Origin: Solirubrobacterales bacterium
GTDB lineage: Bacteria > Actinomycetota > Thermoleophilia > Solirubrobacterales > Solirubrobacteraceae
Assembly: GCA_019244745.1 (NCBI GenBank)
Contig: JAFASF010000385.1
Span: forward strand, 1-41,583
Direction: 5' to 3'
Length of the DNA: 41,583 bases
A model generated the notes under the pieces. The model saw only the letters and a list, made by a program, of their open reading frames with translations, was not told the DNA's origin and searched no databases. Of this stretch, positions 2 through 30,945 are shown one piece after another. Both the position numbers and the translations under genes were made by a program. The first letter of the stretch is position 1, and every line of letters begins with the position of its first letter.

Positions 2-565
2 AACAAGTTCGAACAGGAACGCAGCGCGCAGCTTTTCGGTCGCGCCTACGACACGCCGGCGATCGCTCTGCGGTTCTTCAACGTCTACGGCCGAAACCAG
101 GCCCTGTCCAATCCGTACACCGGCGTCCTGGCGATCTTCGCCTCGCGTCTGCTCAATGACCGGCCACCGATGATCTTCGAAGACGGCGAGCAGCGGCGCG
201 ATTTCGTCTCGGTGAACGATGTGGCCCGCGCGTGCGTGCTCGCACTCGAACGCCCTGCCCTCCAGACCGACGCGATCAACGTGGGCAGCGGCACCAGCGT
301 GACCGTGCGCGGCATCGCCGAGCGGCTGGCCCGGATCCTGGGCAAGGCGCACATCGAGCCCGAGGTCACCCACGAGTACCGGGTCGGCGACATCCGCAAC
401 TGCTTCGCCGACATAAGCAAGGCCCGGGAGGTCCTGTCGTTCGAGCCTAAAGTGGCACTCGATGACGGAATCCGCGACCTCGCCGAGTGGCTCGAAGGCC
501 AGGTTGCCGATGATCGGGTCGAGCAGGCTCGCCAGGAATTGACATCCAGGGGGCTCACCGTTTGA
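2..565 (+). CDS. NAD-dependent sugar epimerase/dehydratase (SDR), C-terminal part
   Basis: This is the 3' part of a gene cut by the window edge; the reading frame is open from base 2. Extended-SDR sugar epimerases act on nucleotide-activated sugars in the cytoplasm. The second residue visible, Lys in NKFEQER, sits where the catalytic Lys of the YxxxK motif is expected, so the Rossmann half and the Tyr lie outside the window. RFFNVYGRNQ, EDGEQRRDFVSVNDVA and NVGSGTSVTVR are typical of the substrate-binding half and resemble dTDP-L-rhamnose 4-epimerase-like enzymes. The stop overlaps the TTG start of the next gene (TTGA), so the two are probably translationally coupled. The family is clear; the exact sugar is not. 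Confidence 0.9.
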   Translation, partial: NKFEQERSAQLFGRAYDTPAIALRFFNVYGRNQALSNPYTGVLAIFASRLLNDRPPMIFEDGEQRRDFVSVNDVARACVLALERPALQTDAINVGSGTSVTVRGIAERLARILGKAHIEPEVTHEYRVGDIRNCFADISKAREVLSFEPKVALDDGIRDLAEWLEGQVADDRVEQARQELTSRGLTV

Positions 566-2640
566 GCCGGATCGTCGACACGATCCGGCGCGCGCCGGCG
601 CCCGAGCCTCGGCCGCGCGGCGGCGGTCCGCCGCGGGCGCGGAGAGGGGCCATGCCCGAGCTCGGCGTCGTCCAGTACTTCCACCTCGGCGACTACGACG
701 CCGCGGAGCGGGCGCTGGACGCGCTGTCGCAGCTGCCGATCAAGCAGCTGCGCACATCGATCTCCTGGTGCGACTGGCTGCGTGAGGGAGGCGAGGAGTG
801 GTACCGCTGGCTGCTGCCGAAGCTGACCTCGCGGATCTCCGTGCTGCCTTGCGTTCTCTACACGCCGCCTCACCTCGGCCTGCTGCCGAAGACCTCCTCG
901 CCCCCGAGGGACCCCCAGGCGTACGGGCAGTTCGTGGAGGCGGTGCTGCGGGAACACCTCGAGAGGTTCCCGTACGTAGAGCTCTGGAACGAGCCGAACA
1001 ACTACATCGAATGGGACTGGACGGTCGACCCCGAGTGGACGATCTTCGCCGAGATGATCGCGGGCGCGGCGTCGCGCGCGGCGAAGCTGGGCGTCAAGAC
1101 CGTGCTGGGTGGGATGAGTCCGTTCGACCCCAACTGGCTTGATCTGATGTTCACGCGCGGCGCGCTCGAGCACGTCGACGTGATCGGGGTGCACGGCTTT
1201 CCCGGCACCTGGGAGGCCGTGTGGGAGGGCTGGGACGCGCACGTCGCGCGGGTCCGCGAGGTGATCGGCCGCCGGGGCGGCGCCCAGCGGATCTGGGTTA
1301 CCGAGGCCGGCTACTCGACCTGGGCCAACAACGAGTTCGGGCAGCTCACGACGATGGACGAGTTGATCCACGCCCCGGCGGAGCGCGTCTACTGGTACTC
1401 ACTCGAGGATCTCGCGCCGGAGCGCGAGACGCTGGACGGCTTTCACTGCGACGAGCGCGCGTACCACTTCGGGCTGCGCCGTAACGGCGGGGAAGCGAAG
1501 CTGCTCGGACGGGTGCTCGCCGCCCGCGGCGTCCCCGGAGTCCGGGAGATGGTGCGGTTCTCCTCGCCGCGCGGAGCGCCGGCCCGCGGCAGCGTGCTGA
1601 TTACCGGCGGCGCCGGGTTCATCGGCACCAACCTCGCGGACCGGCTCGCTCGAGACGGGACACCCGTGACGATCCTCGACAGCCTGGCCCGTCCCGGCGT
1701 CGAGCAGAATCTGCGCTGGCTCAAGCGCAAGCACGGAAGGCTCGTCCGCGTCGAGGTGGGTGATGTCCGCGACACGTTCGCCCTGCGCCGCGCCATCAAA
1801 TCTTGCGAGCGGGTGTTCCACCTGGCCGCGCAGGTCGCCGTCACCACCAGCCTCGAGGACCCGCGCGCTGACCTCGGAGTGAATATCCAGGGCACGATCA
1901 ACGTCCTGGAGGAGGCGAGGCGGCTAACCGATCCGCCTGCGGTCGTGTTCACCTCGACGAACAAGGTCTACGGACGACTCGATCGACTGGAGCTCCGCCG
2001 GCGTGGCGAGCGCTACGAGCCGGTCGACGAGCTGATCCGGTCCCGGGGAATCGCCGAGCGCCAGGCGCTCGAGTTCTGCAGCCCCTACGGGTGCTCCAAG
2101 GGGGCAGCAGACCAGTACGTGCTCGACTATGCCCACAGCTACGGACTGCCCACGTGCGTGTTCCGGATGAGCTGCATCTACGGGCCGCATCAGCAGGGAA
2201 CCGAGGATCAGGGCTGGGTGGCTCATTTCGTCCTCAGCGCGCTGCGCGATGACCCGATCACCGTGTTCGGCGACGGCCATCAGGTCCGCGACCTGCTCTA
2301 CGTCGAGGACCTGGTCGACGCGCTGCTCGCCGCGTCCACCAACCGGCCGGCCCTGACGGGCCGGGCGTTCAACATGGGCGGGGGAGTCGCCAACGCGACC
2401 AGCGTCTCCGAGGTGATCGAGATGATTGGGACCCTTCACGGGGAGCAGCCAAAGACGATGGGCGCGGCCTGGCGCGTCGCTGACCAGCGCTACTTCGTCT
2501 CCGACACCTCCGCGTTCGGTGCGCTCACCGGATGGAAGCCGCGGGTGCCGCTCGCGAGCGGCCTGCGCGCGCTGTACGAGTGGCTCGCCGGCGAGCACGA
2601 GCAGCAGCGGCCGCTGCTGGTCGCCGCAGCGACGCAATAG
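562..2640 (+). CDS. Fusion of GH-A glycosidase-like TIM barrel and CDP-tyvelose/paratose 2-epimerase-like SDR
   Basis: This 692-residue protein has two enzyme domains. Residues about 31-325 look like a clan GH-A barrel: ELWNEPN carries a putative acid/base Glu144 and WVTEAGYST a putative nucleophile Glu248. Residues about 341-680 are an extended SDR with the NAD loop TGGAGFIG (348-355), TSTNKVYG, and YGCSKGAADQY with Tyr509 and Lys513. HLAAQVAVTTSLEDP and QGWVAHF resemble CDP-paratose 2-epimerase (tyvelose epimerase). The TTG start overlaps the upstream stop. An ATG at 652 would remove a basic, Pro-rich leader of 30 residues and is a plausible alternative. There is no signal peptide, so the glycosidase half is predicted to be cytoplasmic, which is odd for a polysaccharide hydrolase. 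It may act on an intermediate or bind sugar. Domain calls are firm; substrates are unknown. Confidence 0.88.
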   Translation: MSRIVDTIRRAPAPEPRPRGGGPPRARRGAMPELGVVQYFHLGDYDAAERALDALSQLPIKQLRTSISWCDWLREGGEEWYRWLLPKLTSRISVLPCVLYTPPHLGLLPKTSSPPRDPQAYGQFVEAVLREHLERFPYVELWNEPNNYIEWDWTVDPEWTIFAEMIAGAASRAAKLGVKTVLGGMSPFDPNWLDLMFTRGALEHVDVIGVHGFPGTWEAVWEGWDAHVARVREVIGRRGGAQRIWVTEAGYSTWANNEFGQLTTMDELIHAPAERVYWYSLEDLAPERETLDGFHCDERAYHFGLRRNGGEAKLLGRVLAARGVPGVREMVRFSSPRGAPARGSVLITGGAGFIGTNLADRLARDGTPVTILDSLARPGVEQNLRWLKRKHGRLVRVEVGDVRDTFALRRAIKSCERVFHLAAQVAVTTSLEDPRADLGVNIQGTINVLEEARRLTDPPAVVFTSTNKVYGRLDRLELRRRGERYEPVDELIRSRGIAERQALEFCSPYGCSKGAADQYVLDYAHSYGLPTCVFRMSCIYGPHQQGTEDQGWVAHFVLSALRDDPITVFGDGHQVRDLLYVEDLVDALLAASTNRPALTGRAFNMGGGVANATSVSEVIEMIGTLHGEQPKTMGAAWRVADQRYFVSDTSAFGALTGWKPRVPLASGLRALYEWLAGEHEQQRPLLVAAATQ

Positions 2641-2645
2641 AGGCC

Positions 2646-3581
2646 ATGCGCGCAGCGGTTCTGAGCGCCCCAAGGGAGCTGGTGCTCGCGGAGTGCCCGC
2701 CGCCCGACCCCGGACCGCGGGAGGTCAGGGTGAGGCTCGAAGGGGCCGGCATCTGCGCCTCCGAGCTGCCGCTGTGGGAGGGACGCGAGTGGTTTCGCTA
2801 CCCCCGGGATCCCGGCGAGCCTGGGCACGAGGGCTGGGGCAGGATCGACGCGGTGGGTGGACAGGTGGCGAACCTGCGGGCGGGACAGCGGGTTGCGGTC
2901 ATCTCCCACCGCGCCCATGCCGAGATGGACGTGGCCGAGGCCGCCCACGTCGTCTTGCTCCCGGACGCGCTCGGCCACGGCTCGCCGTTTCCCGGAGAGC
3001 CGTTCGCATGCGCGGTGAACGCCATGCGCCGCGTCGCCGTGCAGCCGGGGGAGCGCGTCGCGGTCGTCGGCTGCGGGTTCCTGGGACTGGTGTTGGTTCA
3101 GCTGTCCGCGGCATCCGGCTGCGAGGTGGCCGCGATCTCGCGCCGGACCACGGCGCTCGAGCTCGCGCGGGGGAGCGGGGCGGCGAGCGCATGGCGCCCC
3201 GGAGAGCGTTCGCTCGAACGACAGAGGCCGTTCGACGTCGTCTTCGAGGTGACCGGGCATCAGGAGCCGCTCGATCTCGCCGCCCGCCTCACCCGGGTGC
3301 GAGGACGGCTGGTGATCGCCGGCTACCACCAGGACGGGCGCCGCTCTGTGGATATGCAGCTGTGGAATTGGCGGGGCTTGGACGTCATCAACGCGCACGA
3401 GCGCGATCCCGCCGCGTACGTGGCCGGCCTTCGGGAGGCCGTCGCCGCGGTGGAGTCGGGGCGCCTGGATCCCGGGCCGCTCCTCACGCACCGGTATCGC
3501 CTCGAGGAGCTCGCCGAGGCGTATCGGATCTCCGCGGCGCGACCCGAGGGATTCATCAAGGCGGTGTGGTGCGATGCCTGA
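2646..3581 (+). CDS. Medium-chain (zinc-type) alcohol/polyol dehydrogenase
   Basis: This 311-residue protein belongs to the medium-chain dehydrogenase/reductase superfamily, which oxidises or reduces alcohols and sugars with NAD(P). The GroES-like half has GICASE (Cys37) and PGHEGWG (His61, Glu62), matching the catalytic zinc ligands. The Rossmann half has VVGCGFLGLVLVQ. It is shorter than the usual 340-380 residues, and the four-cysteine structural zinc lobe is missing. The ATG at 2646 is preferred because MRAAVLSAPRELVLAE is a typical family N-terminus; the frame stays open further upstream but there overlaps the preceding gene and is Ala/Arg-rich. It overlaps the next gene by 8 bases. In this locus it probably oxidises or reduces a sugar ring or side chain. 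Confidence 0.88.
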   Translation: MRAAVLSAPRELVLAECPPPDPGPREVRVRLEGAGICASELPLWEGREWFRYPRDPGEPGHEGWGRIDAVGGQVANLRAGQRVAVISHRAHAEMDVAEAAHVVLLPDALGHGSPFPGEPFACAVNAMRRVAVQPGERVAVVGCGFLGLVLVQLSAASGCEVAAISRRTTALELARGSGAASAWRPGERSLERQRPFDVVFEVTGHQEPLDLAARLTRVRGRLVIAGYHQDGRRSVDMQLWNWRGLDVINAHERDPAAYVAGLREAVAAVESGRLDPGPLLTHRYRLEELAEAYRISAARPEGFIKAVWCDA

Positions 3582-4572
3582 CCCGCGGCCGCGCCTGGGC
3601 TTCCTGGGGGTGGGATGGATCGGCAGGCATCGTATGCAGGCCGTCCAGCGCGCGGGCGCAGCCCACATCGCGGCGATCGCCGACATCGATCCCGAGGTGG
3701 CGCACGCTGCGGCCGCCACCGTGGGCTGCGCGGATGTCTGCCCCGATCTCGAGGAGCTGCTGTCGCGGGATCTGGACGGGGTGGTCATCGCCACACCAAC
3801 GGCGCTGCATGCACGCCATGTGAGTGCGGTGGTGGGGCACGGGATCCCGGCCTTCTGCCAGAAGCCGTTGGGGCGCACCGCCAGCGAGTGCCGCGAGCTG
3901 GTAGAGCTCGCGCGCAGCGCGGACGTGCGGCTCGGAGTGGACATGTCCTACCGGTACCTGGCCGCCGTGCGGGCGGCGCTGACGGCGCTTCGCGCGGGGA
4001 CCATCGGCGAGCCCCACGTCGCCGAGCTCGTGTTTCACAACGCGTACGGACCGGATCGAGAGTGGGCGCGAGATGCCGCGCTGGCCGGAGGCGGCGCCCT
4101 GGTCGACCTCGGCTGCCATCTGGTCGATCTCGCCCGTCTGTTCTTCGGAACCGTCGCCGCGGACCGCGTCCACGCGGACCTGTTTGCATCCGGCGCGCGG
4201 CTCGGCCCCGATCCCTCGCGGGTGGAGGACTTGGCGCTGGCCCAGGTGACGCTGACCGACGGACGGGTGCTGCGTATCGCCTGCTCGTGGTGGCTGCCCG
4301 CGGGTACCGATGCGCTGATCGAGGCGTCGTTCATCGGCCACGGACGCGCCCTCACGATCCGCAACGTCGGGGGGTCGTTCTACGACTTCGAGGCGCTGCT
4401 GGTGGAGGGCCGCCGCTACCGGCGGATCTGTGAGCCTCCCGACGATTGGGGCGGTCGGGCCCTGGTCGAGTGGGCGTCGCGGCTGTCCTGTGACCGCTCG
4501 TTCGATGCCGAGGTGGAGCAGCAGGTGGACGTCGCGCGGGTGATCGACCAGATCTACGGGAGGGCGGCGTGA
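3574..4572 (+). CDS. Gfo/Idh/MocA-family NAD(P) oxidoreductase
   Basis: This 332-residue protein is of typical length for glucose-fructose oxidoreductase/inositol dehydrogenase-type enzymes, which oxidise or reduce sugar hydroxyls. The N-terminal Rossmann motif is LGFLGVGWIGRH. The family's EKP motif appears as QKP (Gln96-Lys97-Pro98), with the catalytic-pocket Lys kept. DLGCHLVDLARLFFG matches the conserved GxHxxD region of the C-terminal domain. The ATG overlaps the end of the upstream dehydrogenase by 8 bases, and the stop overlaps the GTG of the next gene (GTGA). Two consecutive redox enzymes suggest a two-step or ring-oxidation modification of a sugar. The substrate is unknown. Confidence 0.92.
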   Translation: MPDPRPRLGFLGVGWIGRHRMQAVQRAGAAHIAAIADIDPEVAHAAAATVGCADVCPDLEELLSRDLDGVVIATPTALHARHVSAVVGHGIPAFCQKPLGRTASECRELVELARSADVRLGVDMSYRYLAAVRAALTALRAGTIGEPHVAELVFHNAYGPDREWARDAALAGGGALVDLGCHLVDLARLFFGTVAADRVHADLFASGARLGPDPSRVEDLALAQVTLTDGRVLRIACSWWLPAGTDALIEASFIGHGRALTIRNVGGSFYDFEALLVEGRRYRRICEPPDDWGGRALVEWASRLSCDRSFDAEVEQQVDVARVIDQIYGRAA

Positions 4573-5618
4573 GAGTTCTGCTGGTGGCGGACGTCGTCGG
4601 CGGAGCTGGCACGTTCGTCGGCGAGCTGACCCGCGCCCTGACCGTAGGCGAGACGGAGGTTCATCTAGCCCTGCTCGGCCCGCTGCGGCGCCGGAGTGAA
4701 TTCCAGCGGCTCCGCGCGAGCTCGTGCGAGCTGCGCGACCTGCGCCTGGAGTGGATGGAGGAGCCGTGGGCGGATGTCGAGGCGGTGGGCGAATGGGTGG
4801 AGGAGCTGCGCGAGCTGCACCGTCCCGACCTGATCCACATGAACACCTTCGCGCCGGTCCTCTCCCGCGCGGTGCCGGTGCTTCTCACAGTGCATTCATG
4901 CGTGCTGACGTGGTGGCGCGCCGTTCACGGGCGGCCGGCGCCCGCGGCGTGGGCGCGCTACGAGCGCCTTGCGCGGGCCGCGATCGAGCGAGCCGAACTG
5001 ACCGTGACGCCGACGCGGGCTCTGCTGTCCGATCTCGTGGCCGTCTACGAGCGCCTGCCTGGGGCCAGGGTGATCCCCAACGGCCGGTCGGTCCGGCAGA
5101 CCGACCGGCCGGGCGCAGACCGCCAGAGGCTGGTCGTTAGCGCAGGGCGCCTCTGGGACGAGGCGAAGAACGTCGATCTCCTCGCGCAGGCGGCCGGCGC
5201 GATTCACGGTCGCGTGGCCGTCATCGGCCCGGGGCGGGTCTCCGGCGTCGATGCGCTCGGGGCGCTCGACTCGAGCGCGGTGCTCAACTGGTTCTCGCGC
5301 GCCGCGGTGTTCGCCGAGCCCGCGCGCTACGAGCCGTTCGGGCTGGCGGCGCTCGAGGCCGCGCTATGCGGCTGCGCGCTGGTGCTCGGCGACATCCCGA
5401 GCCTCAGGGAGGTGTGGGGCGAGGCGGCGACGTTCGTCTCCCCCCACGACGCCGACGCTCTCGTGCATGCGGTCAACCGGCTGCTCGACGATCGGATTCT
5501 GCGGCAAGAGGCCGCGCGCCGGGCGCTCGCGGCCGCGGCGCGCTTCTCTCCGTCGGAAATGGCAAGCGCCTACTCGGATGCTTACAGGCAGCTGGTTGCG
5601 GCGGGGGCCCCGGCATGA
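4569..5618 (+). CDS. GT4-like glycosyltransferase
   Basis: This 349-residue GT-B glycosyltransferase starts at a GTG inside the previous stop. The N-terminal half begins MRVLLVADVVGGAGTFVGEL, a group-1 acceptor domain. The C-terminal half contains VVSAGRLWDEAKNVDLLAQAA and the EX7E nucleotide-sugar motif (Glu255 to Glu263, EPFGLAALE). Retaining GT4 enzymes transfer a sugar from a nucleotide donor to an acceptor at the cytoplasmic face. It is more canonical than the three CgeB-like enzymes that follow. The stop overlaps the ATG of the next gene (ATGA). Family assignment is solid; donor and acceptor are unknown. Confidence 0.92.
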   Translation: MRVLLVADVVGGAGTFVGELTRALTVGETEVHLALLGPLRRRSEFQRLRASSCELRDLRLEWMEEPWADVEAVGEWVEELRELHRPDLIHMNTFAPVLSRAVPVLLTVHSCVLTWWRAVHGRPAPAAWARYERLARAAIERAELTVTPTRALLSDLVAVYERLPGARVIPNGRSVRQTDRPGADRQRLVVSAGRLWDEAKNVDLLAQAAGAIHGRVAVIGPGRVSGVDALGALDSSAVLNWFSRAAVFAEPARYEPFGLAALEAALCGCALVLGDIPSLREVWGEAATFVSPHDADALVHAVNRLLDDRILRQEAARRALAAAARFSPSEMASAYSDAYRQLVAAGAPA

Positions 5619-6703
5619 ACGTGAAGCTCTTCTGCCACTCGATCGTCTCCGACTGGAATCACGGCAACGCGCACTTCCTGCGCGGGGTCGCGCGCGAGCT
5701 TCGCCGCCGGGGACACGACGTCACCGTGCTCGAGCCCGAGGGCGGCTGGAGCCGGCGGAACCTTCTGCGCGAGGCTGGTCCGGCCGCGATCGAGGAGTTC
5801 CGGGCGCTGTTTCCGGAGATTCCGAGCCGCACGTATCGGCTCGAGCGGCTCGACCTCGACCGCGAGCTGCGCGACGCTCACCTGGTCCTCGTGCACGACT
5901 GGAATGAGCCCGCGCTCGTCAACCGGATCGGAGCGCACCACCGGACCCACGGCAGCTACAGGCTGCTCTTCTACGACGCCCACCACCGCGCGGCGACCGC
6001 TCCCAAGCAGGTTGCCGCCTTCGATCTCCGTGGCTATGAGGCGGTGCTCGCGTTCGGCAGTCTGATCCGCGACCTGTACCTCGAGCATGGCTGGGCGCGC
6101 CGGGCGTACGCGTGGCACGAGGCGGCCGACGCGGCACTGTTCCGGCCGATCGACGGCCGTCCACGAGCCGGGGAGATGGTTTGGATCGGGAACTGGGGCG
6201 ACGGCGAGCGCACCGCGGAGCTGCGGGAGTTCCTGCTTGATCCGGTGCGAGCGCTCGAACTCGGCGGCCACGTGCACGGCGTGCGGTATCCCGCCTATGC
6301 GCGCCGGGCGCTCGACGCGGCCGGCCTCTCCTACGAGGGCTGGCTCCCCAACTACCGCGCGCCCGAGGCCTTCGCGCAGCACCGGGTCACCGTCCACGTT
6401 CCTCGAAGGGCCTACGTGCGGCGGCTTCCCGGCATTCCGACGATCCGGGTGTTCGAGGCGCTGGCGTGCGGAATCCCGCTCGTGTCGGCGCCCTGGGAGG
6501 ATCGCGATCGGCTGTTCACGCCCGGCGAGGACTACCTCGTGGCGCGCGACGGGAGGGAGATGACGGGGCATTTGCGCACCCTCCTGCGTGATCCGAGCGC
6601 GGCCGCGCAACTGGCCGCCAACGGGCTGGCCACGATCCGTGCGCGGCACACGTGCGCCCACCGGGTCGATGAGCTGTTGGCGATTGTCGAGGAGTTGCGC
6701 TGA
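5615..6703 (+). CDS. CgeB-like glycosyltransferase, copy 1
   Basis: This 362-residue GT-B-like protein resembles the spore-maturation CgeB and 'glycosyl transferases group 1' families. The start is the ATG overlapping the previous stop. The N-terminus MNVKLFCHSIVSDWNHGNAH is parallel to those of the next two genes, as is the C-terminal donor-site segment RVFEALACGIPLVSAPWED. A conserved LVHDWNEPALVNRIG lies in the N-terminal half. The three tandem genes look like diverged duplicates, each perhaps adding one residue to a glycan. The stop shares one base with the next ATG (TGATG). No membrane segment is evident. Confidence 0.87.
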   Translation: MNVKLFCHSIVSDWNHGNAHFLRGVARELRRRGHDVTVLEPEGGWSRRNLLREAGPAAIEEFRALFPEIPSRTYRLERLDLDRELRDAHLVLVHDWNEPALVNRIGAHHRTHGSYRLLFYDAHHRAATAPKQVAAFDLRGYEAVLAFGSLIRDLYLEHGWARRAYAWHEAADAALFRPIDGRPRAGEMVWIGNWGDGERTAELREFLLDPVRALELGGHVHGVRYPAYARRALDAAGLSYEGWLPNYRAPEAFAQHRVTVHVPRRAYVRRLPGIPTIRVFEALACGIPLVSAPWEDRDRLFTPGEDYLVARDGREMTGHLRTLLRDPSAAAQLAANGLATIRARHTCAHRVDELLAIVEELR

Positions 6704-7791
6704 TGCACATCGCGTTCTTCGGCTCGAGCCTCGTCTCCGCTTACTGGAACGGTGCGTGCACCTACTACCGCGGGATCGTCCGGGCGTTGGCGGGACGCGG
6801 GCACCGGGTGACGTTCTACGAGCCCGACGCGCTCGACCGCCAGCGCCACCGGGACATTCCCGATCCGACCTGGGCTCGGGTGGTCGTCTACGAGGCTCCG
6901 GAGGAGGCGGCGGTGCGGCGGGTGGTCGGCGTCGCGGCGAGCGCCGCGGACGTGGTCATCAAGTGCAGCGGCGTGGGAGTCTTCGATGACATCCTCGAGC
7001 GCGCGGTGCTCGACGCCCGCCGGCCGGGCGCGCTGGTCATCTTCTGGGACGTGGACGCCCCCGCCACGCTGACCCGGCTGGAGCTCGAGCCCGCCGATGG
7101 CCTGCGCGCGCTGGTGCCCGACTACGACCTCGTGCTCACCTACGGCGGCGGCGCCCGGGTCGTGAGCCGCTACGAGGCGCTCGGAGCGCGGCGATGCGTG
7201 CCGATCTACAACGCGCTCGACCCCGACACGCACCATCCGGTGCCCCCCCAGGATCGGTACCGCGCCGATCTGTCGGCCCTGGTCAACCGGCTGCCCGATC
7301 GCGAGGCCCGGGTGGAGGAGTTCTTCTTCTCCGTCCTGGAGGAGCTGCCGGACCGACACTTCGTGTTGGCCGGCGCCGGCTGGGAGGATCGCGCCGGCGC
7401 GGCCAACCTGCGGTATCTCGGACATCTTCCTCCGGCGAGTCACAACGCCTTCAACTGCTCACCGCGGGCGGTGCTCAACGTGACCCGTGACTCGATGGTG
7501 GTCAACGGCTGGTCGCCCGCCACCCGCGTTTTCGAGGCGGCGGGCGCGGGCGCGTGCGTGCTGAGCGATGCCTGGGAGGGACTCGATCATTTCCTGACCC
7601 CGGGCTCCGAGGTGATCGCGTGCGCCAGCGGCGCCGACGTCGTGGCCGCCCTCGAGGACCTGGACGCAGAAAGCGCCCGCCGGATCGGTGCCCGCGCCCG
7701 CGAGCGCATCCTCGAGGAGCACACCTATGCCCATCGGGCCGAGCAATTCGAGGACCTCCTGACCTCCAGCCAGGTGGGGACGCTCGGGTGA
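6703..7791 (+). CDS. CgeB-like glycosyltransferase, copy 2
   Basis: This 362-residue second member of the tandem set starts MHIAFFGSSLVSAYWNGACT, followed by YYRGIVRALAGRGH, in register with copies 1 and 3. The C-terminal donor-binding region is RVFEAAGAGACVLSDAWEG with LTPGSEV after it, equivalent to the EX7E region of GT-B enzymes but without the canonical second Glu. VIFWDVDAPATLTRLE is shared with copy 3 (FYDIDTPVTLAKL) and not with copy 1, so copies 2 and 3 are closer to each other. It overlaps its neighbours at both ends. The sugar substrate is unknown. Confidence 0.87.
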   Translation: MHIAFFGSSLVSAYWNGACTYYRGIVRALAGRGHRVTFYEPDALDRQRHRDIPDPTWARVVVYEAPEEAAVRRVVGVAASAADVVIKCSGVGVFDDILERAVLDARRPGALVIFWDVDAPATLTRLELEPADGLRALVPDYDLVLTYGGGARVVSRYEALGARRCVPIYNALDPDTHHPVPPQDRYRADLSALVNRLPDREARVEEFFFSVLEELPDRHFVLAGAGWEDRAGAANLRYLGHLPPASHNAFNCSPRAVLNVTRDSMVVNGWSPATRVFEAAGAGACVLSDAWEGLDHFLTPGSEVIACASGADVVAALEDLDAESARRIGARARERILEEHTYAHRAEQFEDLLTSSQVGTLG

Positions 7792-8861
7792 AAGTCACGA
7801 TCCTCGGCCTTTCGATCACCTCCTCGTGGGGGAACGGGCACGCCACCAACTACCGGGCGCTTGCCCGCGCGCTTCACGGCCGGGGCGACGAGGTGACGTT
7901 TCTCGAACGCGATCGCCGCTGGTACGCACAGCACCGCGATCTCCGTGATCCGCCCTGGTGCAGCGTGTTCCTGTATGAGTCGGTGCCCGCTTTGCGCTCC
8001 CGTTTCGCGGGGTTGATCGCCGAATCGGACGTCGTGATCATCGGCTCGTTCGTCCCCGACGGGGTCGAGGTCGCGCGGTGGGTGCTCGGCCGGGCGCACG
8101 GGCCGGTCGCGTTCTACGACATCGACACCCCGGTCACCCTCGCCAAGCTGCGCGGGGGCGATGATGAGTACCTGAGCGCCGAGCTCGTGAGCCACTTCGA
8201 TCTGTATCTGTCGTTCACCGCGGGGCCGGCGCTCGACGCGTTGCGCGAGCAATTTGGCGCGCGACGGGCGGAACCCTTCTACTGCTTCGTCGATCCCGAC
8301 GCGTACCGGCCGCTGGAGCTGGCATCACGGTGGGCGCTCGGCTACCTCGGCACATACTCCGCGGGTCGCCAGCGCGCGCTCGACGAGCTCCTGCTGGCGC
8401 CCGCGCGCCGCCTCCGCCACGCGCGCTTCGGGGTCGCCGGGCCCATGTACCCGCCGGAGATCGACTGGCCGGCGAACGTCGATCGCATCCAGCATCTGCC
8501 TCCGGGCGAGCACCCCCGGTTCTACTGCTCCGCCTCGTTCGCGCTGAACCTCACCCGGCCAGAGATGCGCGCGGTCGGCTACGCCCCCTCGGTCCGCCTG
8601 TTCGAGGCCGCCGCCTGCGGGGTGCCGATCATCTCCGACCGGTGGCCGGGCATCGAGACGATCCTCGAGCCCGGCGAGGAGATCTTCCTCGCCGACAGCT
8701 GCGAGGACGTGGTGCGGATCCTGCGCGAGACAGCGGTGGCTCAGCGGCGGGCGGTGGGGGCCGCGGCGCGGCGCCGGGTGCTCTGCGAGCACGCCGCCGA
8801 GCGCCGCGCCGAGCAGCTGCACGAGCTGGTGGGCGAGTTGGCGGGGGAGCCGGTGCAATGA
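7788..8861 (+). CDS. CgeB-like glycosyltransferase, copy 3
   Basis: This 357-residue protein starts at the GTG inside the previous stop (GTGA), giving the family-like N-terminus MKVTILGLSITSSWGNGHAT. An upstream extension of the frame is Arg/Gly-rich and overlaps copy 2, so it is rejected. FYDIDTPVTLAKL and RLFEAAACGVPIISDRWPG match the equivalent blocks of copy 2. It is predicted to be a cytoplasmic GT-B transferase working in sequence with its two paralogues. The stop overlaps the ATG of the methyltransferase gene (ATGA). Confidence 0.87.
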   Translation: MKVTILGLSITSSWGNGHATNYRALARALHGRGDEVTFLERDRRWYAQHRDLRDPPWCSVFLYESVPALRSRFAGLIAESDVVIIGSFVPDGVEVARWVLGRAHGPVAFYDIDTPVTLAKLRGGDDEYLSAELVSHFDLYLSFTAGPALDALREQFGARRAEPFYCFVDPDAYRPLELASRWALGYLGTYSAGRQRALDELLLAPARRLRHARFGVAGPMYPPEIDWPANVDRIQHLPPGEHPRFYCSASFALNLTRPEMRAVGYAPSVRLFEAAACGVPIISDRWPGIETILEPGEEIFLADSCEDVVRILRETAVAQRRAVGAAARRRVLCEHAAERRAEQLHELVGELAGEPVQ

Positions 8862-9646
8862 CGCTTCAGTCTCACGGCGGCGCGATCTCGGCTCGGGACG
8901 GGTTCGGGCGGGCGATCCGCGAGCTTGCTCCTTGGTTTCACAACCTCCACCTTCCCGACGGGCGGCAGACCGCGCCCGATCATCCGCTGGGCGACTTCCC
9001 GGCGTTCAAGTGGAACCAGCTCGAGGCTTCGCTGCCCGCTGACATGAAGGGCTTGCGGGTGCTCGACGTAGGCTGCAACGCCGGCTTCTACTCGATCGCG
9101 GTGGCCAGGCGCGGCGCAACTGTGCTCGGCATCGACTTCGACCGCCACTACCTCCGGCAGGCCGAGTGGGCGCGCGAGCAGTTCGGGCTGCCGGAGCGGC
9201 AGCTGGCCTTCCGGCAGATGCACGTGTACGAGCTCGCACGCCTCGAGGAGACCTTCGACGTCGTCCTGTTCCTAGGCGTCCTCTACCACCTGCGCTACCC
9301 GCTGCTCGCCCTCGACCTGGTCGCGCAGAAGGTCCGCGACCTGCTGGTCGTGCAGACGCTGACCATGCCGGGCGAGGAGTCGGTCGAGGCCCCGGAGGAC
9401 CTGTCGCTCAGCCAGCGCGAGGTGATGCTCGGTCGGGGATGGCCGAAGATGGCGTTCATCGAACGGCGGCTGGAAGGCGACCCCACGAACTGGTGGGCTC
9501 CGAACCGGGCATGTGTGCGGGCGATGCTGCGCTGCGCGGGGCTCGAGCCGATCGGATCGCCGGGGCACGAGATCGAGCTGGCGCGGCGGGTGATGGACCC
9601 TGCTTCTCCGCCAGAGTTGACGGCGCTCCTCGGCGCCGGCACTTAG
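8858..9646 (+). CDS. SAM-dependent methyltransferase (CmoB/DUF1698-like)
   Basis: This 262-residue class I methyltransferase carries motif I VLDVGCNAGFYS (from residue 68), then an acidic loop GIDFDRHYL for SAM binding. VVLFLGVLYHLRYPLLALD resembles the CmoB/DUF1698 group, but the protein is shorter than CmoB and sits in a glycan cluster, so O-methylation of a sugar or glycolipid is more likely than tRNA modification. It is the last gene of the coupled + strand run. Its TAG overlaps the TAA of the convergent beta-glucosidase gene in the four bases TTAG (9643-9646), leaving no spacer for a terminator. Confidence 0.88.
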   Translation: MTLQSHGGAISARDGFGRAIRELAPWFHNLHLPDGRQTAPDHPLGDFPAFKWNQLEASLPADMKGLRVLDVGCNAGFYSIAVARRGATVLGIDFDRHYLRQAEWAREQFGLPERQLAFRQMHVYELARLEETFDVVLFLGVLYHLRYPLLALDLVAQKVRDLLVVQTLTMPGEESVEAPEDLSLSQREVMLGRGWPKMAFIERRLEGDPTNWWAPNRACVRAMLRCAGLEPIGSPGHEIELARRVMDPASPPELTALLGAGT

Positions 9647-10815
9647 CGCGCCCCGGTGGGGGCCAGGGCAGCGAAGTGCCGCGCGCTCGGCTTGACCGTC
9701 CGCTCCTGCGAGTCACGGTCGACGGCGATCAGCCCGAACCGCTGCGCGTAGCCGTGATGCCACTCGAAGTTGTCCAGCGCCGACCAATGGATCAATCCGC
9801 GGACGTCGACCCCGTCGGCCATCGCGCCGCGCATCGCGGCGGTCGAGCGATCGATGTACTCGACGCGTCTGCGGTCATCATCGGTCGCGATCCCGCTTTC
9901 AGTGACGATCAACGGACGACCGCCGGTCACCTCCCAGGCGCGACGCAGGGTCGCGCCGATCGCTTCCGGCCAGAACTCATACCCCGCGGCGGTCACCTCA
10001 ACGCCCGCCTCGTTACCGACCCAGCCCTGGGGACCGATTCGATGGCGGGTGTAGGTGTTGACACCCACGAAGTCGTCGCCACCGGCGGCCTCGAGAAACA
10101 CGTCTTCACGGAGCCGGCGCACGCTCTCCACCTCGCCCTCTCCGCCCGGCAGCGCCTGCCACTCCGCCATCGCGAGCGCCAACCCGACGGGCAGGTCGGG
10201 ACGGACCTCGCGGATCGCCTCGACCGCGAGCCGGTGGCCCTCGATGAACATCTCGGTCACGCGCAGCCTCGCCTCGCGATCGCGCCTGCCCGGCGGAAAC
10301 ACGCCCTCTTCGTATCCGAGCAACGCGGGCATGTTCGGTTCGTTGATCGTGATTGCCACGGCAGCCAGGTCGCCCAGCCGTTCGGTCACCACGGCGCAGA
10401 AGCGCGCAAATCGCTCCGGGGTTTGCCGATGCTCCCAGCCGCCGCCTCGGGCGAGCCAGCGTGGATTGGTGAAGTGGTGCATGGTGATGACGGGCAGCAG
10501 CCGGTGATCTCGGCAGCACTCGGCCATCGCCCGGTAGTGGTCAAGCCAGCGCCGCGAGTAGGTGCTCGGCTCGGGCTCGATCCGCGACCACTCGACCGCG
10601 AACCGGTAGCAGTTCAAGCCCAGATCGGCCAACAGCGCGATGTCCTGGGGATACCGGTGAAGGTGATCACAGGCCGAGCCGGAGGGCTCGGCACATCCGG
10701 AGCCGGGCGCGAGCTCCCAGTCGTGCCAGTCGTTGAGGACGTTGCCGCCCTCCACCTGGTGCGCCGAAGTCGCGGCGCCCCACAGGAAGGGAAGCGGGGA
10801 GATCCGATCGCTCAC
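9643..10815 (-). CDS. GH1 family beta-glucosidase-like glycosidase
   Basis: This protein of about 390 residues is a retaining GH1 enzyme that hydrolyses beta-glycosides. Seen: FLWGAATSAHQVEGG at the N-terminus, TINEPNMPALLG with acid/base Glu159, VTESGIA with nucleophile Glu306, and the C-terminal SALDNFEW. It is slightly shorter than the usual 440-480 residues. The GTG at 10815 (MSDRISPLPFLWG) starts just before the barrel. An ATG at 10893 would add a Pro/Gly-rich 26-residue leader and would overlap the divergent gene's ATG, so the shorter form is preferred. No signal peptide is seen, so it is probably cytoplasmic. It faces the glycan cluster tail to tail. Confidence 0.9.
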   Translation of the reverse strand: MSDRISPLPFLWGAATSAHQVEGGNVLNDWHDWELAPGSGCAEPSGSACDHLHRYPQDIALLADLGLNCYRFAVEWSRIEPEPSTYSRRWLDHYRAMAECCRDHRLLPVITMHHFTNPRWLARGGGWEHRQTPERFARFCAVVTERLGDLAAVAITINEPNMPALLGYEEGVFPPGRRDREARLRVTEMFIEGHRLAVEAIREVRPDLPVGLALAMAEWQALPGGEGEVESVRRLREDVFLEAAGGDDFVGVNTYTRHRIGPQGWVGNEAGVEVTAAGYEFWPEAIGATLRRAWEVTGGRPLIVTESGIATDDDRRRVEYIDRSTAAMRGAMADGVDVRGLIHWSALDNFEWHHGYAQRFGLIAVDRDSQERTVKPSARHFAALAPTGAR

Positions 10816-10891
10816 CGTGCGCTGGTCGGGCTCGAGGTGACCCGGCCCGGGCAAGATACTCGACCGGCCCGGATGCGGGTATCTGACCGTC

Positions 10892-11362
10892 ATGCACGGC
10901 TACTCGCCAGACAAGAAACCGCTCGGCGGCTACGCCGCGCTGACCGCGGCGTTCAACGCCGGAGCCCTCGTCTACGTCGTGGCCCACCGCCGCTCGCGAC
11001 GAAAGCTGCCCGGTGACCTGCCGTTCGGTGATTTCGCCCTGATGGCGTTGGGGACGCAGAAGCTGAGCCGCCTGATAGCCAAGGACCGCGTGACCAGCTT
11101 CGCCCGCAGCCCGTTCACCCGTTACACCGGCGAGGCCGGCCCGGGCGAGGTCTCGGAGGAGCCGCGGGGCAGCGGGCTGCAGCGAGCAGTCGGCGAGCTG
11201 CTCGTATGTCCCCACTGCGTCGGGCAATGGGTGGCCGCCGGGATCGTCGGGTCCTACCTGATCAGCCCCGACGCGACGCGCATGTTCGCGGGTGTGTTCG
11301 CGATCGTCAGTACCTCCGACTTCCTGCAGCAGCTGTGGGTGGCGCTCGAGAGCCGGGCGTGA
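10892..11362 (+). CDS. DUF1360 family membrane-associated protein
   Basis: This 156-residue protein matches the DUF1360 pattern in its central block FGDFALMALGTQKLSRLIAKDRVTSF and the motif LLVCPHCVGQWVA, with a CxxC pair. A short N-terminal hydrophobic stretch (AALTAAFNAGALVYVVA) and a C-terminal one (WVAAGIVGSYLI) suggest membrane association. In Gram-positives, proteins of this family occur as small conserved membrane proteins of unknown role. It is divergent from the beta-glucosidase gene and is followed by the large inverted-repeat spacer. The function is not known. Confidence 0.8.
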   Translation: MHGYSPDKKPLGGYAALTAAFNAGALVYVVAHRRSRRKLPGDLPFGDFALMALGTQKLSRLIAKDRVTSFARSPFTRYTGEAGPGEVSEEPRGSGLQRAVGELLVCPHCVGQWVAAGIVGSYLISPDATRMFAGVFAIVSTSDFLQQLWVALESRA

Positions 11363-11365
11363 CCG

Positions 11366-11595
11366 CTTAGTGTTCGCTTTCGTAAGTACGACGACACAAA
11401 GAGGGGTCGCCGGCGGATGCATGGTGAGGACGCAGGATCCGACGTGTAGCAGCCCTACACGAGGATCCGAGGACGAAGCCAGGCGCCGCCGACCGGACGA
11501 CTCGTGGGCGGCCCGCCGTTTTGGCGAGGCTGGATGCCGAGCGGGCCGCCCACGAGCGCTCGACTGTCGTCGTATTGGCGAAAGCGGGCACTTAG
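11366..11595. repeat. Nested inverted repeat filling a convergent intergenic spacer
   Basis: The whole spacer between the DUF1360 gene and the MMPL gene is one palindromic element. The outer arms are 11366-11396 and 11565-11595: 25 of 31 positions are complementary, and four of the six mismatches would be G-U pairs if transcribed as +. Inside lie two further hairpins. One has arms GTGTAG/CTACAC (11444-11460) flanked by two GGATCC sites (11435 and 11463). The other has a perfect 16-bp stem (11501-11516 with 11541-11556) and a 24-base loop. No target-site duplication was recognised at the ends. It could be a bidirectional terminator, a MITE-like mobile remnant, or a structured RNA. Confidence 0.8.
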
Positions 11596-11599
11596 GGCA

Positions 11600-13816
11600 T
11601 TAGCTCTCCGGCCCGTGGACCGCGCCGGCGGGCACGGGTTCAGGCTCCGCTGCCGGTGAGGAGCCGGCGAAGTATCCGGCGCCCTCCACGTTGATGCGCG
11701 GCAGCACCCGGTCGAGCCAGCGCGGGATCCACCAGTTGATACGGCCCATCAGAATCATCAGCGCCGGGACGAGCAGGCAGCGAACGACTGTGGCGTCGAG
11801 GATCACGGCAACCGCAAGCCCCACCCCGAACTGCTTGACCGTGGGATCGCCGTTGAGCACGAAGCTCCCGAACACGAACACCATGATCAGCGCCGCGGCC
11901 GTGATGACGCGCGCGCTGGTCACCAGGCCGGAGACGACCGAGCTCGTGTTGTCCTCGCCTGCGTGGACGTGCTCCTCGATCTGGCTGACCAGGAACACCT
12001 CGTAGTCCATCGACAGGCCGAACAGGATCGCGAACATGAACAGGGGCACGTAGGAGACGATCGGCACCGGGCCGCTCAGGCCGATCAGCCCGCTGAGCCA
12101 GCCGTATTGGAAGATCGCCGTGAGCACGCCATACGACGCGCCGATCGACAGGAGGTTCATGACCGCGGCCTGGGCCGGGATCACGAGCGTGCGGAACGCC
12201 AGGATCAGCAGCACGAAGCTGAGCGCGATCACCACCACGATCTGGAGCGGCAGCTTGCTCGAGATCTTCGACGCCAGGTCGTCGTAGGCGGCGGTCATCC
12301 CGCCGACATACGCGCGCATGTTGGTGCCCTTCTCAGCCCCGGGGATCACGCTGGCGCGCAGCTTGTGCACGAGATCGGTGGTGGCCTGCTCGGCCGGACC
12401 GTTCTTGGAGATCGTGTTGAAGTACGCCGTGGTCCCCGCTTGGTCGATCTGGGTCGGCGTGACCGAGGCGACTCCCGAGGTGGAGGAGACGTCTTTCTGG
12501 AGCGTCGCGAGCCGCGGGTCGCTGGTGCCTTGGGCCGGCGAGCCGAGCGAGACCGCGATCAGCAGGGGCCCGTTGACGCCGGGTCCGAAGTACTTCGAGA
12601 TCAGGTCATAGGCGCGGCGGGCGGTGGTCGAGGTCGAGAATGCGGCCACGTCCTGTTGCCCCAGGGTGAGCGAGAACAACGGAATGGTCAGCGGAATCAG
12701 GATCGCGAGCGCCGCCAGCCCCGCGATCACCGGTCGCGCGGCGACGTCGTGTGCCCACCTGGCCCACAGCCCTCGTCTGGCCTGCTCGTCCGTCGGGGGC
12801 GTGCGGACCCTCAAGGAGTCGATGTGAGTCCCGGCGATCGCGAGCAGCGCCGGCAGCAGCGTCAGAGCGGCGATCACCGCGACCACGACCGCGATCCCGG
12901 CCATCAACCCCATCGTGGTGACCAGCGGAATCCCGGCCACAGCGAGCGAGACCAGGGCGATGGTCACCGTTCCCCCGGCAAAGAAAACAGCTCCGCCCGA
13001 CGTCGCGGATGCCCGCGCGATCGACTCGCGCAGATCGAGCCCGGCGCTCAGTCCGCGCAGGTGGCGCGTGACGATGAACAGCGCATAGTCGATCCCCACG
13101 CCGAGGCCGATCATCGTGGCCAGGGTCGGCGCCACTGTCGGGACGGTCGCCACGTGACCCAGCATCCGGATGATCGCCAGGGTCGTGGCGAGAGCGACGA
13201 TCGCCGTGAGTATCGGTAGCACCATGGCCACGACCGTCCCGAAGGTGAGCGTCAGGATCACCATCGCCGCGATGATTCCTATGAGCTCGCTGGACTCGGT
13301 GGACGGCTTGGACACCTTTTGGCCGAGCTGGCCCCCGGTCTCGACCTGTAGTCCGGCCGCCTTCGCGGGTTGCGCACGATCGATGATCGCCTGGGCATCG
13401 CCGACTGACAGCGAGCCAGGGGGGACCTTCAGCGTCACGGACAGGTACCCGGTCGACTGATCCTGGCTCAGCGCCGAGGCCCCCTGCGGAGTCAGGGGGT
13501 TGAGCACCGAGGCCACGTTCGGATCCTTCGCCACGTCCGCGGCGGCATCGTTGACCGCGCCTGAGTACTTGGAGTCGGTCAGCTTCCCGCTGGACGCGTG
13601 TAGAACGATTGGGCTGGTTCCGTTGGCCTGACTGGGAAACGACTTCGCCAGCGTGTCCGCCGCCTTCTGGCTGTCCGTGCCCGGCAGCGAGAGGTTGTCG
13701 TTGGTGTTGTCGCCCAGCTGGTGGGAGACCGCGACGAGCGCGAACGCGACGACGACCCAGACCGCGAGAACCAGGAAACGCTGCCGAACGCAGAACCGCG
13801 CCAGTCGATACAGCAC
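11600..13816 (-). CDS. MMPL/RND-superfamily membrane transporter
   Basis: This 738-residue protein is of normal length for actinobacterial MMPL transporters, which export lipids or other hydrophobic molecules using the proton gradient. The N-terminus MLYRLARFCVRQRFLVLAVW leads into the first membrane helix. A large extracytoplasmic loop (SLPGTDSQKAADTLAKSFPS onward) follows, then two clusters of membrane helices. The repeat-related motifs MIGLGVGIDYALFIVTRHLR and FGLSMDYEVFLVSQIEEH carry the Asp-Tyr pairs expected in the proton path. It is alone in its transcription unit. Its 3' end abuts the nested inverted repeat. Confidence 0.94.
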   Translation of the reverse strand: MLYRLARFCVRQRFLVLAVWVVVAFALVAVSHQLGDNTNDNLSLPGTDSQKAADTLAKSFPSQANGTSPIVLHASSGKLTDSKYSGAVNDAAADVAKDPNVASVLNPLTPQGASALSQDQSTGYLSVTLKVPPGSLSVGDAQAIIDRAQPAKAAGLQVETGGQLGQKVSKPSTESSELIGIIAAMVILTLTFGTVVAMVLPILTAIVALATTLAIIRMLGHVATVPTVAPTLATMIGLGVGIDYALFIVTRHLRGLSAGLDLRESIARASATSGGAVFFAGGTVTIALVSLAVAGIPLVTTMGLMAGIAVVVAVIAALTLLPALLAIAGTHIDSLRVRTPPTDEQARRGLWARWAHDVAARPVIAGLAALAILIPLTIPLFSLTLGQQDVAAFSTSTTARRAYDLISKYFGPGVNGPLLIAVSLGSPAQGTSDPRLATLQKDVSSTSGVASVTPTQIDQAGTTAYFNTISKNGPAEQATTDLVHKLRASVIPGAEKGTNMRAYVGGMTAAYDDLASKISSKLPLQIVVVIALSFVLLILAFRTLVIPAQAAVMNLLSIGASYGVLTAIFQYGWLSGLIGLSGPVPIVSYVPLFMFAILFGLSMDYEVFLVSQIEEHVHAGEDNTSSVVSGLVTSARVITAAALIMVFVFGSFVLNGDPTVKQFGVGLAVAVILDATVVRCLLVPALMILMGRINWWIPRWLDRVLPRINVEGAGYFAGSSPAAEPEPVPAGAVHGPES

Positions 13817-13913
13817 ACCGGTAATTGGCCCCGAAGCCCCTCTCTGCTCGCGTTACACCGGCGGCATCCTCGCGCCAGCGCTCCTAGGTGTCAAGCCGCG
13901 GACCCGGCCGGGT

Positions 13914-19145: not shown

Positions 19146-20048
19146 ATGGCGAGCCTGCTGGACCTGACCGTCCAGGGCGACGTCGGAACGATCAGCGACG
19201 AGTCCAAGCTGCCACAGATAAAGCTGATGACACCGCTCGAGCTGTACCGGCTGTGGGAGCGGCAGAACTGGGCCTCTCACCAGATCGACCTTGAGTCCGA
19301 CCGGCGCGACTGGGCGGCGCTCGGCGACCACGAACGCGAGCAGATGATGTACGGCCTGTCGGCGTTCTTCGTCGGAGAAGAGCGGGTCACCAACCAGTTC
19401 TCGGGGCTGGTACTGGCTGCCGAGGACAAGCACGAGGAGGCGTTCCTGCTCACCCAGCAGGTCGACGAGGCCCGCCACGCCCAGCACTTCAACCGCCTCT
19501 ACGAGGAGGTACTCGACTTCGACGGTCAGTTTGAGGATCGACTCGATCGGGCTCGGACGTACCTGACCGACTCCTACTTCCACCTGTTCGACGGCCACCT
19601 CGTCGAGGATCACCGGAGGCTCCTCTCCGATCCCAGCAGCGTCGAGGCCAAGCTCGACTTCATCACGACCTACCACATGGTGATCGAGGGCACGCTCGCG
19701 CTCACCGGGCAGCACTTCCAGACCATGCGGCTCGAGAGGCGCGGGATCCTCCCGGGCCACCTCGAGGCGTTCAAGAGGATCGCCCGGGACGAGCACCGTC
19801 ACGTCGCGTACGGCACCTGGTATCTGCAGAAGAAGGCGCGCGACCCGGAGCTCGCACGGCGCGTGCAGGACAAGCTCGTGCAGACGCTCCCGGCGGCGGC
19901 CGGGGTGATTGTTCCCCCCGGCTTCGACGCGGAGGACGAGTACGAGTACCTCGGTGCGACCGCGCAGGAGCGAAACGAGTTCGCCTACCGCGCCCTGTAC
20001 AGACGGTTGAAGGTGATCGGGATCGGACTCCCTGCCGTAACGGGCTGA
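19146..20048 (+). CDS. R2-like ligand-binding oxidase (R2lox)
   Basis: This 300-residue ferritin-like protein is of the ribonucleotide reductase R2 superfamily. The expected metal ligands are present: Glu78, Glu108/His111 (DEARH), Glu181, and Glu216/His219 (DEHRH). The two residues that form the tyrosine-valine ether cross-link in R2lox proteins are also there with the correct spacing: Val81 (E-x-x-V) and Tyr176 (five before Glu181). This favours R2lox, a Mn/Fe oxidase that binds a fatty-acid-like ligand, over a true ribonucleotide reductase subunit. No nrdA-type gene is adjacent. A strong ribosome site (GAGGGAGAG) precedes the ATG. The last 37 coding bases are duplicated just downstream. Confidence 0.92.
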   Translation: MASLLDLTVQGDVGTISDESKLPQIKLMTPLELYRLWERQNWASHQIDLESDRRDWAALGDHEREQMMYGLSAFFVGEERVTNQFSGLVLAAEDKHEEAFLLTQQVDEARHAQHFNRLYEEVLDFDGQFEDRLDRARTYLTDSYFHLFDGHLVEDHRRLLSDPSSVEAKLDFITTYHMVIEGTLALTGQHFQTMRLERRGILPGHLEAFKRIARDEHRHVAYGTWYLQKKARDPELARRVQDKLVQTLPAAAGVIVPPGFDAEDEYEYLGATAQERNEFAYRALYRRLKVIGIGLPAVTG

Positions 20049-20097
20049 GCGGGCGGTGATCGGGATCGGACTGCCCGCCGTAACCGGCTGAGCGGGA
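20012..20097. repeat. 43-bp tandem duplication of the R2lox gene end
   Basis: Bases 20012-20054 and 20055-20097 are head-to-tail copies, identical at 39 of 43 positions. The first copy encodes the final residues of R2lox and its TGA; the second copy repeats the coding tail and stop after the real stop. It lies immediately upstream of the thioredoxin gene. Confidence 0.9.
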
Positions 20098-20112
20098 GTA
20101 CCACGGGCGTTC

Positions 20113-20118: not shown

Positions 20119-20125
20119 GGTCACT

Positions 20126-20646: not shown

Positions 20647-20647
20647 G

Positions 20648-30941: not shown

Positions 30942-30945
30942 CACG

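Follow-up and report, generated by a model that had tools for sequence, protein, structure and literature searches.

What product is assembled by a chain of nine genes for altering, transferring and methylating sugars, when no flippase, polymerase or export gene is in view? The question is raised by the first 9,646 bases of a contig of 41,583 nucleotides from a Solirubrobacterales bacterium (JAFASF010000385.1, assembly GCA_019244745.1), the whole of which is termed the window here. All nine open reading frames (ORFs), named g1 to g9 from left to right (Table 1), are present on its forward strand. An initial annotation had read them as a single dedicated line making a rare sugar, possibly 2-epimerised, oxidised and methylated, and stringing it on an acceptor. 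The locus is a conserved biosynthetic cassette, which bears out the idea of a dedicated line. Our preferred reading, put forward tentatively, is that this horizontally spread gene set directs the cytosolic synthesis of a soluble O-methylated glycoside or short oligosaccharide, probably linked to inositol, in which a redox pair inverts one carbon.

The genes are tightly packed. ORF coordinates reproduce exactly the seven overlaps and single gap originally described: 4 bases are shared at g1/g2, g4/g5, g5/g6, g7/g8 and g8/g9, 8 bases at g3/g4 and 1 base at g6/g7, while 5 bases separate g2 from g3. Third-codon-position GC is coding-like in all nine, at 0.84-0.90. The families first proposed are upheld by Pfam: short-chain dehydrogenase/reductases (SDR; SDR1 in g1, SDR2 in g2), a zinc-binding dehydrogenase (ADH), a Gfo/Idh/MocA oxidoreductase (Gfo), a GT4-type glycosyltransferase, three CgeB-like transferases with PF13524 and a methyltransferase.

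Seven components (SDR1, SDR2, the GT4, the three CgeB-like transferases and the methyltransferase) were treated as a core set. The protein encoded by g2, a glycosidase-like barrel fused to SDR2, found ten loci when searched against genome contigs, with titles naming Solirubrobacterales, other Actinomycetota, Coleofasciculus, a deltaproteobacterium, Thermoanaerobaculum, Bryobacteraceae and Acidobacteriaceae; by record titles the spread covers about five phyla, proteobacterial plasmids included and the deltaproteobacterium counted apart. Loci chosen by a single other gene tell the same story. Among 15 genomes picked by the methyltransferase family TIGR04290 alone, a set that omits the window's own genome and those whose loci the fusion had already supplied (G000, G308, G304, G413 and G471), 12 have at least five of the seven core genes in the stretches fetched. 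The three misses are a single 5.2 kb contig (L121), a genome with the methyltransferase and barrel only (G862), and L131, whose genome (G854) was kept among the 15 although below the TIGR04290 cut-off. Each of ten plasmid loci picked by g7 or g9 has six or seven of the seven. The family itself is rare, exceeding its cut-off in 5/299 genomes of the window's class, 4/396 of its phylum, and 6/297, 1/244 and 3/198 of further samples, which overlap in part (G000 is in two of them). It is matched in 12 of the 13 genomes or records behind the loci, the exception being the Coleofasciculus genome (G301), and 11 of these matches exceed the cut-off. On plasmids, relatives of TIGR04290 occur on 132 of 72,556 records (E <= 1e-30), mostly of Sinorhizobium (66) and Rhizobium (34), and matches to g7 include Sinorhizobium meliloti 1021 and 2011; the S. 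meliloti 1021 locus (L049), which is the region of L050 and has no gene table, was left out of the counts. These synteny counts make the gene set more than a chance assembly. Homologues thus co-occur in other genomes, and the suggestion that they might never do so, which would have told against the initial annotation, falls away.

The cassette is variable at one position. When a match over 200 bits was taken as presence, the 36 loci read comprised 21 with the ADH, 11 with a B12-binding radical S-adenosylmethionine (SAM) enzyme of the TIGR04295 type, none with both and four with neither (L015, the short contig L121, and the non-cassettes L131 and G862). Gfo accompanies the ADH in all 21 except L012, where the contig ends, and L138. 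The radical-SAM gene follows SDR2 in the 11 loci (SDR1 in G1402, where SDR2 was unmatched) and precedes the GT4 in all ten whose contig continues, which is the slot held by ADH and Gfo in the window and other one-strand cassettes; several alphaproteobacterial loci have ADH and Gfo as a unit of their own. In the window, the slot between SDR2 and GT4 holds ADH and Gfo and no TIGR04295 gene. The radical-SAM protein of L136 is a member of TIGR04295 (715 bits against a cut-off of 400). Among plasmids, 136 records match the ADH and nine the radical-SAM enzyme (E <= 1e-60), with no genus common to both. Bradyrhizobium sp. 195 carries TIGR04295 genes on two plasmids, NZ_CP082162.1 and NZ_CP082163.1 (86% identical).

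Among the 29 loci complete enough to be placed on a tree (quick method, LG+G4), 18 have the ADH, ten the radical-SAM enzyme and one neither (Fisher 5e-7, relatedness uncorrected). Parsimony requires six changes of module, at least three of them forced by starred branches. The initial annotation had suggested an oxidised end product; this is probably wrong, since the redox pair alternates as a module with the radical-SAM gene, and an oxidation-reduction step, that is an epimerisation, therefore fits better. We infer that the module performs one net reaction, most simply the inversion of a carbinol carbon, achieved either through an oxidation followed by a reduction or through a radical.

Kinship with solved proteins lends this reading some support. 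The best matches of the Gfo profile in the PDB are 6jw6, which we take to be KanD2, a name that the literature search did not confirm, and the glycoside oxidoreductase DgpA (7xr9). The radical-SAM profile matches best 6wte, a tryptophan C2-methyltransferase, and second 6fd2, apramycin oxidoreductase 4, with TokK also among four matches. In neomycin synthesis a zinc dehydrogenase, NeoA, reportedly stands in place of BtrN. In excerpts of two papers (PMC9012708, PMC10991966), the epimerase NeoN and the dehydrogenase BtrN provide examples of epimerisation and of cyclitol oxidation by radical-SAM enzymes; with 6fd2, these aminoglycoside enzymes show redox and epimerisation chemistry on cyclitols and pseudo-oligosaccharides. 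Unlike them, TIGR04295 proteins bind B12, and no aminotransferase was recognised in the cassettes.

Several observations weigh against a shared inversion reaction. Mutual exclusion alone is no proof that both modules catalyse the same reaction. L015 has all seven core genes without either module, and L138 has no Gfo in the stretch read. The six changes on the tree compare with a mean of 8.4 after shuffling, a count as low being reached in 23-27 of 500 shuffles; the module label thus clusters only weakly. Among solved structures, the closest relative of the radical-SAM protein is a C-methyltransferase, and since methyltransferases are among its profile matches, the outcome of the module may instead be C-methylation. 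NCBIfam lists both TIGR04290 and TIGR04295 ('B12_rSAM_oligo') as 'hypothetical equivalogs' with no function assigned, and the alternation offers a direct handle on that of TIGR04295.

Two further inversions may precede transfer of the sugar. By profile comparison, SDR2 is a member of the CDP-tyvelose 2-epimerase family: it scores 369 and 368 bits against two solved CDP-tyvelose 2-epimerases in a PDB search, the next protein scoring 184.5. Alignment with 9rl0 (TaTyvE) and 1orr shows that it shares the Thr-Asn-Lys segment, the Tyr-x3-Lys motif and the substrate-covering DQGW loop of CDP-tyvelose/paratose 2-epimerase (TyvE), the residue roles being those given in excerpts of PMC7851689 and PMC13098431. 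The idea of a 2-epimerised sugar is thereby strengthened, as far as sequence can do so. Of the trio that binds cytidine, Trp207/Trp210/Phe211, the first and last positions are kept and that of Trp210 is His, so the nucleotide carried by the sugar may or may not be CDP. SDR2 also differs from TyvE in being fused to a glycosidase-like barrel, and in its setting, as 3,6-dideoxyhexose genes were not recognised at the window locus. The SDR1 profile has the UDP-glucose 4-epimerase 4zrm as its best PDB match (197 bits), with MoeE5 also scoring high. A 4-epimerase-like enzyme beside a member of a 2-epimerase family makes inversion of a nucleotide sugar at both C2 and C4 a sound guess.

Pfam recognises nothing in the barrel half of g2 at 1e-3, and an initial PDB sequence search with the barrel alone returned no credible match. 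It is nevertheless modelled by AlphaFold as a (beta/alpha)8 fold of eight strands, with Asn143-Glu144-Pro145 after strand 4 and with Glu248 invariant in the alignment. As modelled, it has the attributes of clan GH-A: the fold, an acid/base Glu in Asn-Glu-Pro and a nucleophile Glu after strand 7. Its best fold match is PslG, the Psl polysaccharide glycosidase of Pseudomonas aeruginosa (E 1.1e-14, TM 0.69, 18% identity). Many other cassettes have instead a stand-alone barrel, often annotated as a beta-xylosidase, that is circularly permuted relative to the fused one. In all nine permutants compared, residues ~2-187 match positions ~134-314 of the fused profile and residues ~191-296 match positions ~26-132, both segments being significant. 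The Asn-Glu-Pro motif is present in 17/17 permuted proteins that a profile found in the loci set, and an expression for the nucleophile motif matched 14/17. AlphaFold models of the fused and permuted forms, built from six and three sequences respectively (predicted local distance difference test, pLDDT, 74 and 72), have eight strands in two orders. PslG is also the best match of the permuted-barrel profile (3.2e-6), which makes a PslG or GH39-like family a candidate for the barrel. A fold search with the permuted model found mixed TIM barrels (best E 4e-6) and was not used for family assignment because permutation breaks order-dependent alignment. Unlike PslG, g2 has no hydrophobic segment, and its barrel is fused to an epimerase here and circularly permuted elsewhere.

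No locus read, some of them on cut contigs, has both an intact standard-order barrel and a permutant; the two forms occur together only in L014 and G1324, where the fused copy has lost Asn-Glu-Pro. The permuted barrel is thus a natural experiment in TIM-barrel evolution. The fusion protein keeps the same N-terminal start in L009, L010, L012 and L013. In addition to a stand-alone SDR2, L012 (9827-13217) and L013 (10001-13076) have an extra barrel-SDR fusion, the SDR half of which has diverged (41-42% identity); this fusion adjoins a family 1 glycoside hydrolase (GH1) gene. An apparent fusion of three domains is found in G1223 (L135 and L119 joined, 9361-12939), where a frame of 1192 codons matches SDR1, barrel and SDR2, with a second barrel in standard order further on, at 20245-21645. 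In G1024 (L132 and L116 joined, 19257-21164) one frame matches both CgeB-like C and the TIGR04290 methyltransferase, a possible fusion.

The acceptor is probably inositol, a proposal absent from the initial annotation that comes from the inositol-3-phosphate synthase (MIPS) neighbours of relatives and not from the window. A MIPS gene and a histidine phosphatase gene lie at six of the ten named plasmid cassettes: L050 (where MIPS is in two frames), L052, L136, L137, L139 and L140. MIPS occurs on 107 of the 72,556 plasmids (E <= 1e-60), and at least 95 of these belong to genera in which TIGR04290 is also plasmid-borne, a comparison at genus level. In addition, the distance from the methyltransferase to a PF01658 match is ~4 kb in G952 and ~18 kb in G897, in both of which the MIPS query itself was below threshold. 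Genome-wide, MIPS is present in 20/24 cassette genomes (the window's, in which two pieces lie at the starts of other contigs, and 19/23 others), compared with 116/199 and 66/118 in the background. As a genome-wide marker it was rejected as too weak alone (p 0.016), and the inositol link therefore rests on the plasmid neighbourhoods.

The evidence on this point is uneven. The window contains no MIPS, which is also lacking at four of the ten named plasmid loci; outside those, the MIPS query was unmatched in every fetched locus. Only five of the 107 MIPS plasmids are from Rhizobium, though 34 Rhizobium plasmids have TIGR04290. The genome-wide excess is modest, with relatedness uncorrected and a few cassette genomes included in the background. 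MIPS and the GT4 are each in two ORFs in S. meliloti RCAM1750 (L050:5122-6225 and 11790-13869).

Taken together, these components suggest a pathway in which SDR1, of the C4 type, and SDR2, of the C2 type, would make a rare nucleotide sugar, and the GT4 and three CgeB-like transferases would string sugars onto a small acceptor, probably inositol. The zinc dehydrogenase and Gfo would oxidise and then re-reduce one carbinol carbon, with inversion as the outcome; the B12 radical-SAM enzyme would do the same job in other cassettes. TIGR04290 would add the methyl group, and the proposal of a methylated product stands, g9 being over the cut-off of that family (Table 1). The GH-A barrel, fused here but stand-alone and permuted elsewhere, and GH1 could act on the product within the cell by trimming, proofreading or turnover; the order of the steps is conjectural. 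No clear membrane segment was found in g1-g9, in which 19-residue windows above 1.6 occur only in g3 and g5, inside enzyme domains. Pfam matches no flippase, polymerase, exporter or initiating transferase in the window cassette, and no flippase, polymerase, exporter or initiating phosphoglycosyl transferase is annotated inside the ten annotated plasmid cassettes, with gene tables that are incomplete. A soluble product is suggested by these findings, through an argument from absence; against it, the product may be exported or lipid-linked by genes elsewhere.

This last thought leads to the strongest competing explanation, in which the cassette makes a glycan or glycolipid for the cell surface, built for instance on phosphatidylinositol or an undecaprenyl carrier, and genes at other genomic sites provide the flipping step. 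Four transferases with nucleotide-sugar enzymes are typical of such loci, the closest fold to the barrel is an exopolysaccharide glycosidase, and some relatives have a polysaccharide pyruvyl transferase. The L009 copy of an additional transferase upstream (GTup, described below) also resembles the PEP-CTERM/XrtA transferase TIGR03087, though below its cut-off (161.8 against 316.65 bits). The same absences of membrane segments and of initiating, flipping, polymerising and exporting genes speak against it, and we consider it somewhat less likely than the preferred reading, if worth serious attention.

A bolder form of the cytosolic reading can be drawn from plants. Pinitol is made there by way of ononitol using an inositol-phosphate synthase, a phosphatase, a methyltransferase and two epimerising dehydrogenases, followed by glycosylation. 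The synthesis of plant O-methyl-inositols and galactosyl-cyclitols has the same logic as that proposed for the cassette, a comparison that concerns pathway logic and not an identified product. The cassette might then make a bacterial counterpart of the galactosyl-cyclitols, an O-methylated, epimerised inositol pseudo-oligosaccharide acting as a cytosolic protectant. A redox relay of two enzymes and one B12 radical-SAM epimerase would then be interchangeable means of epimerising its cyclitol or sugar, and an intracellular glycosidase would accompany it in two circularly permuted forms. In this specific form the idea is speculative and rather improbable.

Still less probable is a secreted specialised metabolite that resembles an antibiotic, a pseudo-oligosaccharide assembled by an aminoglycoside-like logic without amino groups. 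Some solved relatives, such as DgpA and 6fd2, belong to glycoside or aminoglycoside pathways, and the methyltransferase profile weakly matches the everninomicin enzyme EvdMO1; yet the gene set is constant across distant phyla, and a recurring resistance gene or exporter was not noticed in the annotated loci, in an uncounted survey. A catabolic or salvage operon for a plant or environmental glycoside, using GH1, the barrel, Gfo and ADH with the transferases incidental, is highly doubtful. Enzymes of the Gfo type, among them DgpA, which the Gfo profile matches, do act in glycoside degradation, and a sugar ATP-binding cassette (ABC) importer is annotated near the S. meliloti cassette, but four conserved transferases, two nucleotide-sugar SDRs and MIPS indicate synthesis, and GH1 was matched in 5/36 loci. 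That the genes are merely co-linear with separate functions is scarcely credible for a set found in distant phyla and in loci picked by one gene, even though relatives divide it into two or three transcription units.

The preferred reading of a soluble methylated glycoside finds no named precedent: no publication on the cassette or its product was found among openly licensed PMC papers, the supplements being outside the search, and the view that no known product could be named holds to that extent. The same literature yielded no publication with the accessions TIGR04290 or TIGR04295, none that looked relevant among the matches listed for CgeB and none on the locus tags SMb20240-45, which we take to cover the cassette. 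The tag SMb20231 denotes a sugar-binding protein in an excerpt of published work, the range SMb2023x-2025x being that presumed to span the cassette. The parts are of known families, their combination is undescribed in the literature searched, and the cassette is apparently unstudied. A set of roughly nine to fifteen genes in about five phyla, carried by many rhizobial plasmids, thus has no product paper that could be found, even though one carrier is pSymB of the laboratory strain S. meliloti 1021, where it lies at ~242-256 kb by the coordinates for strains 1021 and 2011.

The surroundings of the window's cassette extend it on the left. The window starts at base 1 of its contig (C400), which is why g1 encodes only the C-terminal half of an SDR; its N-terminal part was found on another contig of this genome, C119. 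Read on its reverse strand, C119 closes with the 147 bases that open the window, an exact overlap that makes the two contigs adjacent in the assembly. C119 (6.2 kb) adds GTup, a GT4-type transferase whose frame ends inside the start of g1, so that the chain is at least ten genes long, and a divergent sulfotransferase-like gene; relatives of both are present in L009, L010, L012 and L013. The locus is therefore not complete at base 2. Looking upstream, as the initial annotation advised, yielded these two genes and no export gene recognisable by eye in the 6.2 kb; the original remark that none was in view holds for the cassette by Pfam, and C119 was judged by eye only, without a family search.

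Table 1. Genes of the cassette and its convergent neighbour in the window.
Gene	Coordinates	Strand	Product	Family evidence
g1	2..565	+	SDR1, C-terminal half, 187 aa; nucleotide-sugar 4-epimerase-like	Pfam PF01370
g2	562..2640	+	TIM-barrel glycosidase-like domain (residues ~31-330) fused to SDR2 (~340-690), CDP-tyvelose 2-epimerase family	
g3	2646..3581	+	Zinc-binding dehydrogenase (ADH), one half of redox module	PF08240, PF00107
g4	3574..4572	+	Gfo/Idh/MocA oxidoreductase, second half of redox module	PF01408, PF22725
g5	4569..5618	+	GT4-type glycosyltransferase	PF13439, PF13692
g6	5615..6703	+	CgeB-like glycosyltransferase A	PF13524, 131 bits
g7	6703..7791	+	CgeB-like glycosyltransferase B	PF13524, 138.8 bits
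g8	7788..8861	+	CgeB-like glycosyltransferase C	PF13524, 130.7 bits
g9	8858..9646	+	SAM-dependent methyltransferase	TIGR04290, 319.4 bits (cut-off 300)
GH1	9643..10893 (longest frame)	-	GH1 beta-glycosidase, convergent with cassette	PF00232, 241.9 bits

On the right, a GH1 gene adjoins the cassette in the window, as one does in four further actinobacterial loci, L009, L012, L013 and L125. In the window its longest frame and that of the next gene (forward strand, from 10892) overlap at their starts (10891-10894), and the true start of GH1 probably lies further in, as in L009. Far to the right of the cassette, at 30925-39715, translations resemble a pyrimidine-synthesis operon by eye.

Control of the cassette by EcfG, of the general stress response, was rejected as a finding and is no more than a hint. 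Ten proteobacterial loci were scanned with the consensus promoter motif, relaxed at one base, giving 0-5 matches per locus; in the three loci that were shuffled, there were 2 matches against a mean of 1.6 (L050), 2 against 2.1 (L140) and 5 against 1.5 (L137). A strict GGAAC-N16-CGTT lies at L136:11305 in Bradyrhizobium sp. 195, 75 bases before MIPS, the first cassette gene there, and a relaxed EcfG-like site is present ~150 bases before the ADH in L050. Finally, L140 (3149-4885) encodes a protein of 578 aa, with no Pfam match at 1e-3 or NCBIfam match at 1e-10, which recurs near six further cassettes (L050, L052, G952, G935, G1324 and G1402).

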